A stretch of 64,000 bases of DNA, taken from NCBI RefSeq assembly GCF_001027285.1, contig NZ_CP011509.1:2302501-2366500 (forward strand), read 5' to 3'. Below, piece by piece: positions 2,305 through 35,677 of this stretch; position 1 is the stretch's first letter; each line of letters opens with the position of its first letter. The notes under the pieces were generated by a model. That model did no database searches. It had not been told where the DNA came from and saw nothing but the letters and a program-made list of their open reading frames with translations. Source of the stretch: Archangium gephyra. Its GTDB lineage: Bacteria; Myxococcota; Myxococcia; Myxococcales; Myxococcaceae. A program made the position numbers and the translations under genes.

Positions 2305-4323
2305 TCAGGAGGCGTTGGGCAGCGGCATGGGCACAGCCTGCTCAGGGGCCGACCCAGTGGCTTCCCCGCGCAGCAGCCACAGCGCTACCACCCCGGGCAC
2401 ACACAGCGCGAGCGCCACCTGCCAGGACTGTGTCCACGCCGGCTGCGTCTCCATCCGTGACAACAGCACGCTGGTGGCGTTGTTGACGAAGTGCAGGACG
2501 ACTCCGGCCAGCAGCGAGCGCGTGCCCAGTGTGGCGTAGCCGAGCACCAGCCCCACCACCGCGGCGATGAGCACGTGCACCGGGTGGATGTGGAGCAGGC
2601 CGAAGGTCAGTGCGCTGCCCACCACCGCCACCGTGCGAGAGCCCGTGCGCGACAGCCCCGACAACATCACCCCTCGGAACGCCGCCTCCTCGCACACCGC
2701 CGGAGCCAGCGCCACCACCGCCAGCGCCAACGCGAGCGGCCAGCGGGCGCTCTCCTTCATCAGCAGCTCCATCAGCCGCATGAACTCCTCCGTCCCCGGC
2801 GGCGACACGGCGCCCAGCACCCGGCTCAGCACCCCCTGCAGGCCGAGCATTCCCGGCACCAGCAGCAGCACCGCGAGCACCCCGCGCCGCGTGGGCAGCC
2901 GCAGCGAGAACACCTCCCGCATGTCCGCTCCGGAGCGCTTCACCCACAGCACCGCCACCGCCAGGAAGATGCCCACCTGGCTCACCGCCAGCACGCCCCA
3001 CATCGGCAAGCGCTTCCACAGCAGCACGCCCGCGAACAGCGAGGCCACCAGCACCACCGCGAAGTAGAGCAGGGCGCTCCCCGGCGAGAAGTGGTCTCCC
3101 CGCCGCACCTTCCGGCCGAACACGTCCCTCCACGGCTTCTCTCCCGACAGCAGCACCTGCTCGCTCTCGAAGACCCGCGCCGCGAAGAGCAGCCCCACCA
3201 CCGCCCACGCCAGCGTGCTCGTGAACACCACCCCGAAAATCCCCGCGGACACCTTCGCCGTCAGCAGCTCGCGCAGCAGCAGCGCCACGTTGACGAGCGG
3301 CACCGTGGCCAGCGCGGGCGTCAGCTCCAGCCCCGGCACCATGGCCGCATGCGCCGCCACCATCACCCCCAGCAGCAGCGGGGTGAGGTAGTTCTGGCCC
3401 TCCTTGAAGCTGCGCGCCATCACCCCCACCGCCACGAGCAGCGCGCTCACCAGCAGCGACAGCGGCACCAGCGCGGCGAACACCGCTCCCAGCACCCCCA
3501 CGCTCACGTGCACCCGCCCCACCGCTCCTCCCGCGATTCCCACGATGGCCAGTCCCATCGCCCCCAGGTTCACCAGCGCCCCGCCCAGCGTGAAGAGGCT
3601 CACCACCCCGTACTTGCCCAGCACCACCTCCAGCGGCCGCACCGGCGCGCACAGCAGCGTCTGCAGCGTGCCCCGCTCCTTCTCGCCCGCCGTCACGTCG
3701 ATGGCCGGGTAGAAGCCCGACATCACCAGCGCGCACAGCAGCAGGTACGGCAACCCCCACGCCAGCCACATGCCCATCGAGCGGAAGTCCGTCTCCTTCA
3801 CCTGGAGCGGCTCGGCCAGCTCCGGGGACAGCCCCGCCTGCTCGAAGCGGCCTCGCACCGCGTGCAGCTTCACCCCGTCCAACACCTTGTCCAACCGCTT
3901 GCGCGCCACCCCCGAGCCGGGCCGCCCCGTGTCGAAGTAGAGCTCCAGCCCGAGGTTCTCCCCGGCTCCCTCCACCGGTACCGTCTTCAGCGCGAGCACC
4001 GCCTGGACCTTGCGCTCCTCCATCAGCGTCAGGGCCTCCCGGGCGGGCGCCTCTGGAATCGCCTCGCGGCGCTCCACCCACTCCACGCGCTCGGCCTTCC
4101 CCAGCTCCTCCAGGAGCGAGGCGGGCGCGGGCCCCCAGACGGCCAGCTTCAAGGGCTGCTCCTGGAGTTTCTGGTTGGCCGCACCCGCCATCAGCGCGGA
4201 GCCCACCAGCAGCAGCGGGTAGAGCAGCATCGGCACCCCCACGAGCAGCGCGAGCGTGCGCCGGTCTCGCAGGGCCTCCAGCAAGTCACGGCGGAAGAGG
4301 GCGTAGGCGATGGAGAAACGCAT
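2305..4323 (-). CDS. ABC transporter permease fused to CPBP intramembrane protease
   Basis: 672 aa. The N-terminal ~440 residues are a NatB-like ABC-2 exporter permease: one membrane helix, a large extracytoplasmic domain, then several helices (LLLCALVMSGFYP onward). The C-terminal ~200 residues hold the CPBP (CAAX protease and bacteriocin-processing) signature: EEAAFRG (EExxxR), FGLLHIH (FxxxH) and HFVNN (HxxxN), all intact, so the protease part may be active. Start is the ATG at 4323, 10 bp after the ATPase gene's stop; open sequence further upstream overlaps that gene. Last gene of a four-gene operon. Such fusions are known next to NatA-type ATPases. The exported substrate is not visible. 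Confidence 0.88.
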   Translation of the reverse strand: MRFSIAYALFRRDLLEALRDRRTLALLVGVPMLLYPLLLVGSALMAGAANQKLQEQPLKLAVWGPAPASLLEELGKAERVEWVERREAIPEAPAREALTLMEERKVQAVLALKTVPVEGAGENLGLELYFDTGRPGSGVARKRLDKVLDGVKLHAVRGRFEQAGLSPELAEPLQVKETDFRSMGMWLAWGLPYLLLCALVMSGFYPAIDVTAGEKERGTLQTLLCAPVRPLEVVLGKYGVVSLFTLGGALVNLGAMGLAIVGIAGGAVGRVHVSVGVLGAVFAALVPLSLLVSALLVAVGVMARSFKEGQNYLTPLLLGVMVAAHAAMVPGLELTPALATVPLVNVALLLRELLTAKVSAGIFGVVFTSTLAWAVVGLLFAARVFESEQVLLSGEKPWRDVFGRKVRRGDHFSPGSALLYFAVVLVASLFAGVLLWKRLPMWGVLAVSQVGIFLAVAVLWVKRSGADMREVFSLRLPTRRGVLAVLLLVPGMLGLQGVLSRVLGAVSPPGTEEFMRLMELLMKESARWPLALALAVVALAPAVCEEAAFRGVMLSGLSRTGSRTVAVVGSALTFGLLHIHPVHVLIAAVVGLVLGYATLGTRSLLAGVVLHFVNNATSVLLSRMETQPAWTQSWQVALALCVPGVVALWLLRGEATGSAPEQAVPMPLPNAS

Positions 4324-4333
4324 GGGACACCTC

Positions 4334-5059
4334 TCAGGCGGACCGCGAGGGCAGGTAGTGGAGGAAGGCCTCGGTGAGCGTGCGGACTCCGGCGCGGGCG
4401 CACACCTCGGGGATGGGGCCCTGATCGAGCGCCTCGCCCTGGTGCAGCAGCACCACCCGGTCACACAGGTAGTCCACCTCTCCCATCACGTGCGTGGAGA
4501 AGAGGATGGCCTTGCCCTCGTCCCTCGCCGCGCGGATGGCGTCCAGCAGGAAGCGCCCGGACAGCACGTCCAGCGCCGTGGTGGGCTCGTCCAGGATGAG
4601 CGCCGGTGGATCATGCAGGAACGCACGCGCCACGTTCGCCCGCTGCTTCTGCCCCGCCGACAGCGTCCCGCAGGGCTTGTCCGCGAAGGGCCCCATCTCG
4701 AAGCGCGCGATGAGCTCCTCCGTGCGCCGCTTCAGGTGCGCCGGCTCCAGCTCGTGCAGCTGCCCGAAGAAGGTGAGCACCTCGCGCGGGCTCAGCCGCT
4801 GCGACAGCGCCGTGTCCCCCGAGAGGAAGCCCAGCCGCTGCTTGACGCGGAAGGCGTCCGCCGCCGTGCTCGCCCCGTCCACCACGCCCTCTCCCTCCGA
4901 GGGCGTCAGCACTCCGGCCAGCATGCGCAGCAGCGTCGTCTTCCCCGCGCCGTTGGGGCCCAGCAGCCCCACCACCTCTCCGGCGGCCACCGTGAAGCTC
5001 ACCTCCTTCACGGCCGTGAAGTCTCCGTAGTGCTTCGTCAACCTCCGGGCTTCGATCAT
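4334..5059 (-). CDS. ABC transporter ATP-binding protein, NatA-like
   Basis: 241 aa, the usual length for a single nucleotide-binding domain. Walker A is GPNGAGKTT (~35-43), the signature is LSAGQKQRA (~135), and Walker B is ALILDEPTTALD (~157). It should power the permease/CPBP protein encoded immediately downstream. A short 72-bp gap separates it from the upstream regulator gene. NatA-type ATPases drive exporters of ions, drugs or peptides; the cargo cannot be read from this sequence. Confidence 0.93.
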   Translation of the reverse strand: MIEARRLTKHYGDFTAVKEVSFTVAAGEVVGLLGPNGAGKTTLLRMLAGVLTPSEGEGVVDGASTAADAFRVKQRLGFLSGDTALSQRLSPREVLTFFGQLHELEPAHLKRRTEELIARFEMGPFADKPCGTLSAGQKQRANVARAFLHDPPALILDEPTTALDVLSGRFLLDAIRAARDEGKAILFSTHVMGEVDYLCDRVVLLHQGEALDQGPIPEVCARAGVRTLTEAFLHYLPSRSA

Positions 5060-5131: not shown

Positions 5132-5464
5132 TCAGTCCGTGCCCTGCGGCACCCAGCGCCGGGCCTTGCTGCGCAACTGCTCCAGCTGCTGCCAGTGCCG
5201 CTCCACCGCCTCGCGCCCCGGCTTCGTCACCGCGATGCGCGTCAGCGGCGTCTTGCCCTTGAACTGCTTCTCCACCGTCACCAGCCCCGCCTCCTCCAGC
5301 TTCGCCAGGTGGCTGGACAGGTTTCCCTTGGACAGGCCGGTGAGCCGCTGCAGGTAGAGGAAGTCCGCGCTCTCGCACGACGTCAGCGCGGTGAGCAGTG
5401 CCAGCCGCGCCGGCTCGTGGATGAGCCTGTCCAGCGCCGCCAGCTCCTCGAAAGGCGCCTTCAT
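5132..5464 (-). CDS. Winged-helix transcriptional regulator
   Basis: 110 aa, a single winged helix-turn-helix domain of the small MarR/ArsR-like type. The HTH is visible in YLQRLTGLSKGNLSSHLAKL, followed by the wing with TPLTRIAVTKPG. Its ATG overlaps the stop codon of the upstream membrane-protein gene (ATGA at 5461-5464), so the two are translationally coupled. It sits between a membrane protein and the ABC genes of one operon, a common place for a regulator that controls its own operon. Two GTTTG-N5-CAAAC palindromes around the operon promoter are the obvious candidate targets. That link is inference. Confidence 0.85.
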   Translation of the reverse strand: MKAPFEELAALDRLIHEPARLALLTALTSCESADFLYLQRLTGLSKGNLSSHLAKLEEAGLVTVEKQFKGKTPLTRIAVTKPGREAVERHWQQLEQLRSKARRWVPQGTD

Positions 5465-6159
5465 CCCGGTACCTCCTCGGTCTCCGTCTCGGGCTCGGGC
5501 TCATGGCCCAGCGTGCGCACGAGCAGCCGGTGATCCAGCACGCCGAGCACCACCACGGCCAGGCCCCATATCCCCGTCAGGGTGACCGCCGCGGCCCGGG
5601 CCTCCGAGGTGAAGGGCAGGGTCCTCAGCAGCGCGTACACCGGGTTGGCCTCCAGCGCGTGCAGCACCGCCAGCGCCGCGAAGCCACCGGCCACGCCCAG
5701 GTAGTGGCGCGCCACCCGGCCGCTCCACTGCCAGTACCACACCAGGCTCAGCGCCGAGACGACGAGGATCCACAGGACCGGGGGCTCCGCCGAGAACACC
5801 TGCGTGGACTTGCGGATCACCGCGGTGAGGATTCCCACCACGAGCCCGGCGACCGCCGACACGCCGATGGCCTTCTGCATGCGCTGATTCGTGGTGGCGC
5901 TCCGGCGCACCTCGCCGAACCTCCGGCGGTAGTACGCCCCCAACAGCGCGTAGCACCCCACCGCCAGCAGCGACCCGCCCAGCATGACGAGCAGGCCCCG
6001 CCCCAGGTGCGCCTTCGCGTCCACCCCCTCCGGCGTGGGCAGCGCCAACCAGGCCGCGAAGCCCAGCTGCACCACGCCCAGGGGCACGAAGCGCAGGCCC
6101 TGGACCCAGTCGTAGTACGTCGTCACGAACTGGATGCGCTGCAGCTGTTGCTCGGACAT
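5461..6159 (-). CDS. Hypothetical polytopic membrane protein
   Basis: 232 aa, first gene of the ABC operon. The ATG at 6159 has a strong purine-rich ribosome site (GGGGGGAGG) just upstream. About six hydrophobic segments can be read, for example VPLGVVQLGFAAWLAL, LLVMLGGSLLAVGCYALL and VLWILVVSALSLVWYW, with a charged C-terminal tail rich in Glu. I do not recognise the family. Translational coupling to the winged-helix regulator suggests it belongs to the same response system, possibly as a sensor or a partner of the exporter. Its function is unknown. Confidence 0.8.
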   Translation of the reverse strand: MSEQQLQRIQFVTTYYDWVQGLRFVPLGVVQLGFAAWLALPTPEGVDAKAHLGRGLLVMLGGSLLAVGCYALLGAYYRRRFGEVRRSATTNQRMQKAIGVSAVAGLVVGILTAVIRKSTQVFSAEPPVLWILVVSALSLVWYWQWSGRVARHYLGVAGGFAALAVLHALEANPVYALLRTLPFTSEARAAAVTLTGIWGLAVVVLGVLDHRLLVRTLGHEPEPETETEEVPG

Positions 6160-6188
6160 GACGGCCTCCCCCCTCAGCGGGGCAGACA

Positions 6189-6205
6189 GGTTTGCGTGAC
6201 AAACC
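6189..6205. promoter_or_regulatory. Operator-like palindrome 1 (GGTTTG-N5-CAAACC)
   Basis: A perfect inverted repeat with 6-bp arms and a 5-nt spacer (CGTGA). It lies just downstream of the proposed -10 element of the ABC operon promoter, where a bound repressor would block transcription. It shares the GTTTG-N5-CAAAC core with the second site; the centres are 54 bp apart, about five helical turns. Confidence 0.6.
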
Positions 6206-6208
6206 AAG

Positions 6209-6237
6209 AGGTAACCCGCCCGCCTGCTCGGTGTCAA
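6209..6237 (-). promoter_or_regulatory. Probable sigma-70-type promoter of the ABC/CPBP operon
   Basis: On the minus strand a perfect -35 hexamer TTGACA (6237-6232) is followed after 17 nt by TTACCT (6214-6209), a weak -10. The predicted start is near 6202, about 40 nt before the ATG at 6159. The promoter lies exactly between the two palindromes. The -10 is poor, so confidence is moderate. Confidence 0.5.
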
Positions 6238-6241
6238 CAAC

Positions 6242-6260
6242 CAGTTTGTGGTGCAAACTG
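6242..6260. promoter_or_regulatory. Operator-like palindrome 2 (CAGTTTG-N5-CAAACTG)
   Basis: A perfect inverted repeat with 7-bp arms and 5-nt spacer (TGGTG), immediately upstream of the -35 element of the ABC operon and 8 bp after the end of the next gene. It shares the core with the palindrome at 6189-6205, so the two are probably bound by the same dimeric regulator, most simply the winged-helix protein of the operon. Confidence 0.6.
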
Positions 6261-6268
6261 CGTCCGGC

Positions 6269-7981
6269 TCACCAGATGCCGACGCCGAGGTGCAGCCCGC
6301 CGCGGGCTTCAATCTCCTCCAGCAGCGCGGAGCCGCCGAGCGCCAGGCCATAGGCGGGCATGGACTCGGTGACGAGCCGGCCGTCGTCGCGGGCGAGGTA
6401 CGTCACGGGGGCGCCGAGGCGGGAGAAGCCGGAGGCGCGCAGCAGCTTCTCCGCGGCGCGGGTGATGAGGAAGGCGAGGGCGAGCTCCACGCCGTGTCCG
6501 GCGAGCAGCCCCAGCACGTGTTGGGTGAGGAGCGTGCCCAGTCCCCGCCGCTGGTGCTCGGGCGCCACGGAGATGCCCATGCCCGCCACCTTCACCATGC
6601 GGCCGCCCAGCATCACCTCGCGGAAGGTGATGGAGCGGAAGCCCGCGAGCATTCCGCCCCGCCGCACCGTCACCACCAGGTCCGGCCGCGTGTCGTAGTA
6701 GTAGCGGCCCTGGAGCGCGGGCTCTCCCGGGATGCAGCGGGCCACCAGCGCGCACAGCTCCGCCTCCAGCCCGGGCGGCAGCTCCCGGGTGTCGTGCACC
6801 TCGAGCGACTCGTCCACGCTCGTGGCGGGCCGCACCCGCCCGCGTGCCTTCACCGTCTCGTTGTAGAGCACCACCTTGTGCAGCTCCACGGTGCCGCCGA
6901 AGACGGAGAGGCACAGCAAGTCCCTCAGCATGCCCTCGGCGCCCTCGCCCCGGCGCAGGCCCTTGCCCCCCAGAATGCGGATGAGCCCCTGGGCCGCGTC
7001 CACCGCCGCCTCCACACCGTGCAGCTTGATGATGGAGAGGGTGCCGAACACCTCCTCGCCCCGGGCGAGTGTGCCGAGCGCCGAGTCCAGCAGCGCCTCC
7101 AGCGTCTCCTCGGCCACGCGCATGCGCACCAGCCGCTCTTGAATGTACTGGTGGCGCCCCAGGGGCTCGCCGAAGGTGCGGCGCGACTGCGCGTGGGCCA
7201 GTCCGCGCTCCAGGCAGCGGCGCACCGCCGCGAGGTACAACACGCCGGTGAGCAACCGTTCCTCGGTGAAGGTGGCGCGGAACAGACGCACGCCGTCCCC
7301 CAGCTCGCCGAGCCGCGCGTCCGCGGGCAGCAGTACCCGCCGGGCGATGAGGTTGCCGGTGGCGGAGGTGGCCAGGCCCGTGAGGTCCGTCACCGGGCGC
7401 AGGTGCACGCCCGGCCAGGCCGTCTCCACCAGGAAGAGGTTCACCGCGTGGGCCGGAGGCACGCCGCCCAGCCGCGCGGAGACGATGGCCAGGTCCGCCG
7501 GCCCCACGTTGGTGATGCTGCACTTGCGCGCGTCGAGCCGAGGGCCCTCCGGCGTGGGCACCACGCGCGCGCGCAGGGCGAGGATGTCCGTGCCCGCGCG
7601 CGGCTCGGTGTTGGCCACCGCGCCCACCCACTCGCCGGACAGCAACCGGGGCAGGTGCCGTGCCCGTTGGGCCTCCGTTCCAGCCCGGGCCAGCAGCCGC
7701 ACGCACACGAGGTGCGAGAGCAGCGAGGTGGCCAGCCCGAGGTCCCCCGAGCCCGCCGCGAAGCCCGCGAGCGCATGCACCGCGCCCGGCAGCCCCTCGC
7801 CCCCCAGGGAGGGCTCCAGGGCCACGCGGAACATGCCCGCGTCGCCGAGCCACCGGAACGCCGCGCGGTCGAAACCCGGGGACGTCCCCTGGCTCCCTCG
7901 CCGCTTGCGGCCTGCCTTCGTCCGCTCGGTGCGGTAGCGCTCACCCAGGGCGCGGAACCGCTCGTGAAGCGCGCTCCTCAT
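6269..7981 (-). CDS. Acyl-CoA dehydrogenase fused to a GNAT acetyltransferase domain
   Basis: 570 aa. Residues ~1-385 are an acyl-CoA dehydrogenase: substrate/FAD region AVANTEPRAGTD (~121-132), C-terminal helical domain with QSRRTFGEPL (~265) and the RDLLCLSVFGGT block (~353-364). At the position where medium-chain enzymes carry the catalytic Glu (YEGT) this protein has Gly (FGGT). A Glu-Arg pair in the preceding helix (FTEERLLTG, Glu240/241) sits where isovaleryl- and long-chain-type enzymes carry theirs, so activity is still plausible. Residues ~400-570 form a GNAT domain with the acetyl-CoA loop PEHQRRGLGT. The two folds in one chain suggest chemistry on an acyl-CoA or acyl carrier followed by acyl transfer. 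Substrate unknown; no biosynthetic cluster surrounds it. Confidence 0.82.
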   Translation of the reverse strand: MRSALHERFRALGERYRTERTKAGRKRRGSQGTSPGFDRAAFRWLGDAGMFRVALEPSLGGEGLPGAVHALAGFAAGSGDLGLATSLLSHLVCVRLLARAGTEAQRARHLPRLLSGEWVGAVANTEPRAGTDILALRARVVPTPEGPRLDARKCSITNVGPADLAIVSARLGGVPPAHAVNLFLVETAWPGVHLRPVTDLTGLATSATGNLIARRVLLPADARLGELGDGVRLFRATFTEERLLTGVLYLAAVRRCLERGLAHAQSRRTFGEPLGRHQYIQERLVRMRVAEETLEALLDSALGTLARGEEVFGTLSIIKLHGVEAAVDAAQGLIRILGGKGLRRGEGAEGMLRDLLCLSVFGGTVELHKVVLYNETVKARGRVRPATSVDESLEVHDTRELPPGLEAELCALVARCIPGEPALQGRYYYDTRPDLVVTVRRGGMLAGFRSITFREVMLGGRMVKVAGMGISVAPEHQRRGLGTLLTQHVLGLLAGHGVELALAFLITRAAEKLLRASGFSRLGAPVTYLARDDGRLVTESMPAYGLALGGSALLEEIEARGGLHLGVGIW

Positions 7982-34800: not shown

Positions 34801-35677
34801 CGTGCGTGTCCTGCTCGCGCGGGATGCCGCCTGGTGTGAGGCCGAGGAGCGTGCGCTCTCGGCGCTGCGTCAGGCCCAGGAGCACGCGCTGGCCGTGCTG
34901 ACGGAGCGCCAGACGCAGCGCACCCGGCACGAGGCCTCCGGTCTCCCCGCCATCGCCGAGGGGGAGGCTCCGGCCGCCTGCGAGCGGGCCCGCGCGGACA
35001 CCGAGGCCCGGCGTCAGGCCGCCGCCACGTTGAAGGCCCGGCTCGACCAGGACGACGAGGCCCGCCGCCGCCACGGGGAGCAGGCCCGGCTCCTCGAGGA
35101 GAAGCAGCGTGCCAGCGGCGTGTGGCGCACCCTCAGTGAGCTCATCGGCTCGCACGATGGCCGCAAGTTCAAGGTGTTCGCCCAGAGCCTCACCCTGGAC
35201 GCGCTCCTGCACTACGCCAACGCGCACCTCGAGGAGCTCGCCCCGCGCTACCGCCTCATGCGCGTGCCCGGCTACGACCTCGACCTGCAGGTGGTGGACG
35301 GCGACATGGGCGACGAGGTGCGCGGTGTCTCCAGCCTCTCGGGCGGGGAGAGCTTCCTCGTCTCCCTGGCGCTCGCCCTGGGGCTCGCCTCGCTCTCCTC
35401 GGAGACGACGCAGGTGGAGACGCTCTTCATCGACGAGGGCTTCGGCACCCTGGATCCGGAGACGCTGGAGATGGCCCTGGCCACGCTCGACGCGCTCCAG
35501 GCCACGGGCCGGCAGGTGGGCATCATCTCCCACGTGTCCGGGCTCGCCGAGCGCATCGGTGCGCAGGTGCGCGTGGTGAAGCAGGGCGCTGGACGCAGCC
35601 GGCTCGTCGTGGTGGGCGAGCCGGGGCTCCTGGCCTCCTCGGCTCCCGCGCCACGGCCCACGGCGTCGGTGGGGTAG
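31892..35677 (+). CDS. sbcC: Exonuclease SbcC (Rad50 homologue)
   Basis: 1261 aa. Walker A GATGSGKSTLLDA (~36) and Q-loop region at the N-terminus; two long Ala/Glu/Arg-rich coiled coils (~170-600 and ~640-1040); between them the zinc hook GQPCPLCGATEHPY (~613-626, CxxC). The C-terminal half-ATPase has signature LSGGESFLVSLALALGLA and Walker B ETLFIDEGFGTLDPE. The reading frame is open further upstream but the ATG at 31892 is coupled to the sbcD stop. Forms the SMC-like partner of SbcD in DNA-end processing. The coiled coils are unusually Ala-rich from high GC. Confidence 0.96.
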   Translation: MRILAIRGCNLTSLAGDFALELDQPPLDKLGLFAITGATGSGKSTLLDAMCLALFDRTPRLGERGGVPVGRADEDEDARLMANDVRGMLRRGAGEGFAEVDFLGKDGRRYRARWSVWRARKLAEGRFRPQEMSLTDVVSQQSFGRTKSEVLKAIEERLGLSFDQFRRSALLAQGEFAAFLRADANERAELLERMTGTEVYSRVSMAAHQRQKEVQEELSKLEQGVAAIARLSDEERTVVEAQRAREEAALGEARAVQERAEQALQWYTERARRVAQEAEAEQSRQRAAQALEAAEPRKTELERVRAAEVLRAPLNRVDEASRRLAEAEAALAARRAEAEAARASAQVCEEARAKAEARRSAAVEAEAAARPALEEALKLDAELTRARSDEQEAARKLEAARESERVAQEALARVAGDEEAARAEQKAAEAWLVENKRLEAMAREWPRWEAELLRYGRAAQDETKARDALAQVRSRAGALRAEAERREKEKREADAALEEAKARVASAEAAQGQEAGAERRARRVELQSRQEGLRALTDARKGASEAARAEQEAAEEAGKARAEQASATAEAEAAKVRRLEREAALKEARRAFAEARATVDLAEHRAELRAGQPCPLCGATEHPYRQTGTALEGLATKARARVEELEGEAAEGTRAEAEARARAAAAGPRAAQAEARREAAAQRRVQQRAAWSDARAKLSGALPPEDVAAEGLEAWLEKALAEVKALQAELNAAEEAAEKLERVAKEARTALTAALEHQEVVEKAVREAGEALRESTDAETAAGREVEQAARVRQEVLEVLAVPFKDLPPWQESLSSKPVDFRARCAKRVAEWNTREQASKDAETRVAQARDRRAPAETEAGVKRALTESCVQALSRAQEVLREKQAARAALLGGRPTAEVREGLQRELEDASRAFESVRAGAEKAKQEAAAAVARVEAATQTQASAGTARAEAEAALSALLSARSLTLEAVRVLLARDAAWCEAEERALSALRQAQEHALAVLTERQTQRTRHEASGLPAIAEGEAPAACERARADTEARRQAAATLKARLDQDDEARRRHGEQARLLEEKQRASGVWRTLSELIGSHDGRKFKVFAQSLTLDALLHYANAHLEELAPRYRLMRVPGYDLDLQVVDGDMGDEVRGVSSLSGGESFLVSLALALGLASLSSETTQVETLFIDEGFGTLDPETLEMALATLDALQATGRQVGIISHVSGLAERIGAQVRVVKQGAGRSRLVVVGEPGLLASSAPAPRPTASVG

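Follow-up and report, generated by a model that had tools for sequence, protein, structure and literature searches.

Two matching palindromes bracket a promoter on the minus strand of the Archangium gephyra DNA analysed here (the window, the whole stretch of 64,000 nucleotides), and the locus raises the question of which protein acts on them and whether it does so to hold down the operon behind. The first-pass annotation had proposed that a winged-helix protein encoded within the operon represses its own promoter from both palindromes cooperatively, perhaps with looping. Comparison of sequences across genomes strongly supports the autoregulatory part of that proposal, through site conservation, promoter position and covariation of regulator and operator, and does not support a fixed-geometry cooperation. 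With a probability of about 0.87 the two palindromes, O1 and O2, are operators of the HTH_34 regulator of the second gene, which would repress its own operon by promoter occlusion.

The elements first described are all in place (Table 1): both palindromes are exact copies of GTTTG-N5-CAAAC with centres 54 bp apart, TTGACA-N17-TTACCT stands between them on the minus strand, and the regulator gene is second in the operon, its start overlapping the stop of the first gene in an ATGA (5461-5464). Read along the minus strand, O1 is followed by TTGACA, 17 nt, TTACCT and then O2, which lies 30 nt from the first-gene start (6159); transcription would begin near 6202. The −10 hexamer agrees with TATAAT at 2 of 6 letters, and a promoter scan that demands an A at −10 position 2 listed none in the region. 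TTGACA is invariant in an alignment (A5) of 10 hand-picked two-site loci. The arrangement is intergenic, between the operon and a gene at 6269-7981 (−) for an acyl-CoA dehydrogenase fused to a GNAT acetyltransferase domain, whose stop codon is 10 nt from O1. The sole tRNA found in the window is a tRNA-Leu (gag) at 35135-35221 (−).

Table 1. Features of the operon and its promoter region in window coordinates.
Feature	Coordinates	Strand	Remarks
O1 operator, upstream of −35	6244..6258	−	GTTTGTGGTGCAAAC; 23-bp form 6240-6262
−35 hexamer TTGACA	6232..6237	−	begins 6 nt past O1
−10 hexamer TTACCT	6209..6214	−	weak consensus match, 17 nt after TTGACA
O2 operator, over inferred +1	6190..6204	−	GTTTGCGTGACAAAC; 23-bp form 6186-6208
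First gene, 232-aa membrane protein	5461..6159	−	5 hydropathy peaks; six long helices in model
Second gene, HTH_34 winged-helix regulator, 110 residues	5132..5464	−	PF13601
ABC transporter ATPase, accessory operon member	4334..5059	−	
ABC-2 permease fused to CPBP intramembrane protease	2305..4323	−	NF041647

The regulator scores 78 bits against HTH_34 (Pfam gathering cut-off 27); its best sequence match in the PDB, and the closest fold to its structural model (TMq 0.79), is 1ub9, the PH1061 protein of Pyrococcus horikoshii. The model consists of the winged helix and a C-terminal helix with no further domain, and its recognition helix spans residues 46-58. The permease-protease gene scores 599.7 bits against ABC_perm_CPBP, above the curated cut-off of 435. 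The 232-aa membrane protein matched no Pfam or NCBIfam family, and a PDB fold search with its model (pLDDT 88) gave no match at E ≤ 0.001, the best being 0.56.

Shuffles give an expectation of 0.01 for GTTTG-N5-CAAAC in the window, and a search of the whole 12,489,432-bp genome, as the first-pass annotation had advised, returned exactly two copies, O1 and O2. A reversed control pattern has three copies genome-wide; a lone copy is thus no more than chance would give, and what is striking is the two together. A relaxed search of the same genome with a degenerate 17-mer and one mismatch reached five places including O1 and O2, against nine for the reversed control, so there is no excess over control and no sign of further targets in this genome.

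Occurrence of the site with the gene pair

The expectation that the palindromes would stand before orthologous operons is borne out well beyond the order. The cross-phylum set comprised the best 80 loci from a scan of named genomes, with titles that include Chloroflexi, Acidobacteria, actinobacterial genera, Gemmatimonadota, Armatimonadetes, Aminicenantes, Hyalangium and Luteimonas. Two loci (L033, L062) were dropped as duplicates and five lay too near a contig end, and promoter motifs were counted at 73 of the 78 non-duplicate loci. The commonest 5-bp inverted repeat found de novo upstream is GTTTG-N5-CAAAC itself, exact in 35 of the 73 promoters with 0 for the reversed control, while the next in frequency, at 12 loci, is another register of the same motif; elsewhere in these loci the exact pattern has 0 copies in 527,692 bp. 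With up to one mismatch a site is present in 52/73 promoters versus 4 for the reversed control, and outside the promoters there are 14 matches versus 11. A 23-bp operator consensus, ACTRGTTTGYRNYRCAAACYAGT, was built from 38 exact sites. In 14 genomes (some 133 Mb from rounded sizes) GTTTGYRNYRCAAAC has 18 copies and the reversed control 0; the cognate promoter accounts for 15 of the 18, and 4 of the 14 genomes have no copy.

A gene with at least three hydropathy peaks lies directly upstream of the regulator at 72 of 76 evaluable loci of this set and at 17 of 18 loci of the order. An ABC ATPase is found downstream in only 21/71 evaluable loci (the 71 include L033 and L062). The name ABC/CPBP operon calls for correction: these genes are optional, and the constant unit is the multi-TM membrane protein with the HTH_34 regulator.

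Within the order 145 genomes were searched, and 31 of them held a regulator match, many weak. An upstream site with at most two mismatches was found at 15 of the 18 best homologues, a count that includes the window's own locus and was run without a control at such a loose setting; no site was found at L014, L019 or L020, and at L016 the site is located further up, at −1346. All four same-genus loci with the regulator (L003-L006) have two sites, and so do 8 of the 13 loci looked at in the window's family (L003-L014, L020), the centres being 54 bp apart in the window's own genus and 57-58 bp in another genus of the family; L008 and L012 retain the upstream site with TTGACG after it. One same-genus genome (L004/L324) retains both operators, of which one is mismatched, and lacks the ABC ATPase; tblastn around the gene pair in L324, L326, L327 and L330 found no ABC or permease gene. 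At L009/L330 (G118) the membrane gene is split over two frames, one mismatched site is left and no promoter is evident, which gives the impression of a module in decay. The duplicate L062 (BNCN01000006.1) has an N-terminally incomplete regulator match with no membrane gene found ahead of it; the record is labelled Comamonas sp. KCTC 72670 and coincides with G107:C6 of the window's family, so the label looks mis-assigned.

HTH_34 relatives at E ≤ 1e-8 occur in 138 of 297 sampled genomes of Acidobacteriota (the phylum of a Pyrinomonadaceae member of the set), 82/301 of Chloroflexota (that of Anaerolinea), 22/246 of Actinomycetota (that of Sphaerisporangium) and 22/195 of the window's own phylum; these are counts of relatives among the first candidates scored, with membership in the module established for only part. 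The Sphaerisporangium genome of L066 (G152) has six regulator-profile matches at that threshold.

Regulator residues and operator letters

Covariation of regulator and operator was tested on 261 distinct proteins with an HMM score of at least 60. Enough upstream DNA was available for 253, and at 154 a site scored higher than in any of 30 shuffles; an earlier run at other settings had a site in 139/216. Added beyond the loci first taken were 40 Chloroflexota and 40 Acidobacteriota places, the remaining matches being left out. The matrix used to find sites came from GTTTG sites; ±3, ±7 and ±8 to ±11 were made uninformative in it before the test, and the finder gave a bonus for symmetry irrespective of letters.

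The letters at ±7 are GG in 69 of 71 loci with K46 and in 11 of 12 with R46, and CC in 36 of 39 with D46; the few loci with G, A, S or N at residue 46 have mixed letters. The pairing of K or R with G and of D with C agrees at 116 of 122 loci, none of which has the opposite letter in both halves, and the other six have different letters at ±7, several of them resembling wrong picks of the site finder. Among 93 positions, residue 46 ranks first in mutual information with ±7 (0.87 bits, next 0.52), and residue 51 ranks first with ±3 (0.36, next 0.22). The second association is looser, as 15 of 38 loci with V, I or R at residue 51 keep GG and 3 of 96 with S, A or T have A at ±3. In a phylogeny from which the helix columns were left out, K and D switch about three times, two of them on supported branches, and every switch agrees with the operator change; this is too few for significance, so the strength of the result lies in the position ranking and its structural sense. 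A recognition code in which residue 46 goes with ±7 and residue 51 with ±3 is therefore likely on this comparison, with K46 and S51 the likely specificity residues of the window's regulator.

Some homologues that lack a GTTTG site have a different palindrome of the same geometry; the D46 homologues L047, L053, L059 and L019 have CTTTA or CTTTG half-sites (AGTACTTT...AAAGTACT) beside the promoter. A site above all shuffles is missing from 99 of the 253 evaluable upstream regions (31/102 with K46, 48/87 with D46), which may have other promoters, sites further up or none.

Promoter geometry and mode of action

Near the site a promoter with at least 10 of 12 matches was found at 77 of the 154 loci, against 2.0 in shuffled flanks. 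Of these 77 loci, 17 have the operator centred between −51 and −47, 2 at −16 and 58 between −14 and +14. An operator over −10/+1 is in a repressing position by established promoter biology, and at all these positions a bound dimer would block RNA polymerase. Single sites are mostly over or beside −10/+1, with some inside the spacer, and many of the single-site loci, not all, have a near-consensus promoter adjoining (L035, L036 and L038 show none). On hand-made lists that include weak sites, one site is present at 46 non-myxobacterial loci and two at 14.

The 22 two-site loci, likewise listed by hand with weak sites included, share one close constraint: in 20 of them the best promoter of the intervening DNA begins 3-7 nt past O1; L067 fits with its second-best promoter only and L112 has none there. 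An exact TTGACA follows the upstream site in 15 of the 22. The interval between centres varies because O2 sits at a variable distance after the −10, and the values seen are 44, 45, 49, 53, 54, 57, 58 and 64 bp with no common helical phase. Cooperative repression by looping or helical phasing has in its favour the 54 bp of the window, close to 5.1 helical turns, and the recurrence of paired sites across the genus and in much of the family. The spread from 44 to 64 bp in mixed phases, the many loci with one site and a regulator model that offers only the winged helix and C-terminal helix make this an unlikely account, and looping was rejected as a conserved feature.

An activating regulator, bound at O1 (centre near −49), or one with a dual role, would fit the 17 upstream operators, which keep a nearly fixed distance to the −35. 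It is improbable, however, given the 58 operators in the repressing position and the many single-site loci that have just that site, where a near-consensus promoter should need no activator. Service to another, unlinked regulator is less probable still: binding of the linked protein to the sites is a prediction, but the sites are found with the linked gene across several phyla, the letters in them follow its recognition helix, and 15 of the 18 occurrences in the 14 genomes are at the cognate promoter. That O1 or O2 is an RNA hairpin or a terminator of the upstream gene is hardly credible even with O1 so close to the upstream stop codon, as the stem is short and without a T run, what is conserved is the placement with respect to the promoter, and a scan of 5900-6600 found nothing terminator-like.

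The favoured account is repression by the linked regulator. A regulator dimer at O1 would compete with sigma for the −35 and another at O2 would cover the start point, and in this way transcription of the operon would be kept down by its own regulator. What would be repressed is the membrane protein, the regulator and, in this lineage, the ABC transporter with its CPBP protease-permease. A signal would relieve the repression, most simply by way of the membrane protein.

Relation to known systems

ArsR/SmtB proteins bind as dimers to imperfect palindromes over promoters, and SdpR is a winged-helix protein of the ArsR type. The window's regulator has a related winged helix, but against the ArsR/SmtB metalloregulator family (NF033788) it scores 37.5 bits, under the curated NCBIfam cut-off of 55, and identity as a metalloregulator was rejected. 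In the part of the open-licence literature searched no operator was found for the HTH_34 family, and HTH_34/PF13601, PH1061, palindromes of the AGTACTTTG or GTTTGC/GCAAAC type, pairs of ArsR with a membrane protein and CPBP with a winged helix brought up nothing recognised as this system.

Judged by analogy, the nearest functional analogue is SdpI/SdpR. In that Bacillus subtilis system (PMC1626106, PMC6818787) a membrane protein sequesters the autorepressor on signal (PMC1626106), and the likeness is that a small autorepressor, here a putative one, and a polytopic membrane protein share one operon. Such a pair, with an operator at the operon promoter and a repressive sign that we infer, is what the 17/18 and 72/76 loci present. 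The gene order is reversed relative to the window's operon, and window-type loci differ also in sometimes having ABC genes downstream. SdpI identity for the membrane protein was rejected: it has no Pfam family, and SdpI is absent from the 18 weak families matched by 33 relatives. Sequestration of the SdpI kind by the window's membrane protein is accordingly put forward as a hypothesis, by analogy of layout.

Promoter occlusion is an ordinary mechanism, and what is noteworthy here is the breadth of the system, the recognition code and the membrane partner. The observation holds up, and it amounts to more than was at first proposed: a conserved, dedicated operator/regulator pair. More tentatively, and with the odds somewhat against the full picture, it may represent a widespread and hitherto undescribed one-operon signalling pair, in which a membrane protein without a detectable PDB or Pfam relative gates a winged-helix autorepressor with SdpI/SdpR-like logic built from unrelated parts, with a two-residue operator code and with ABC exporters or proteases as lineage-specific outputs. 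The operator and the likely recognition code make target promoters predictable, and the uncharacterised membrane-protein family is the probable sensor.
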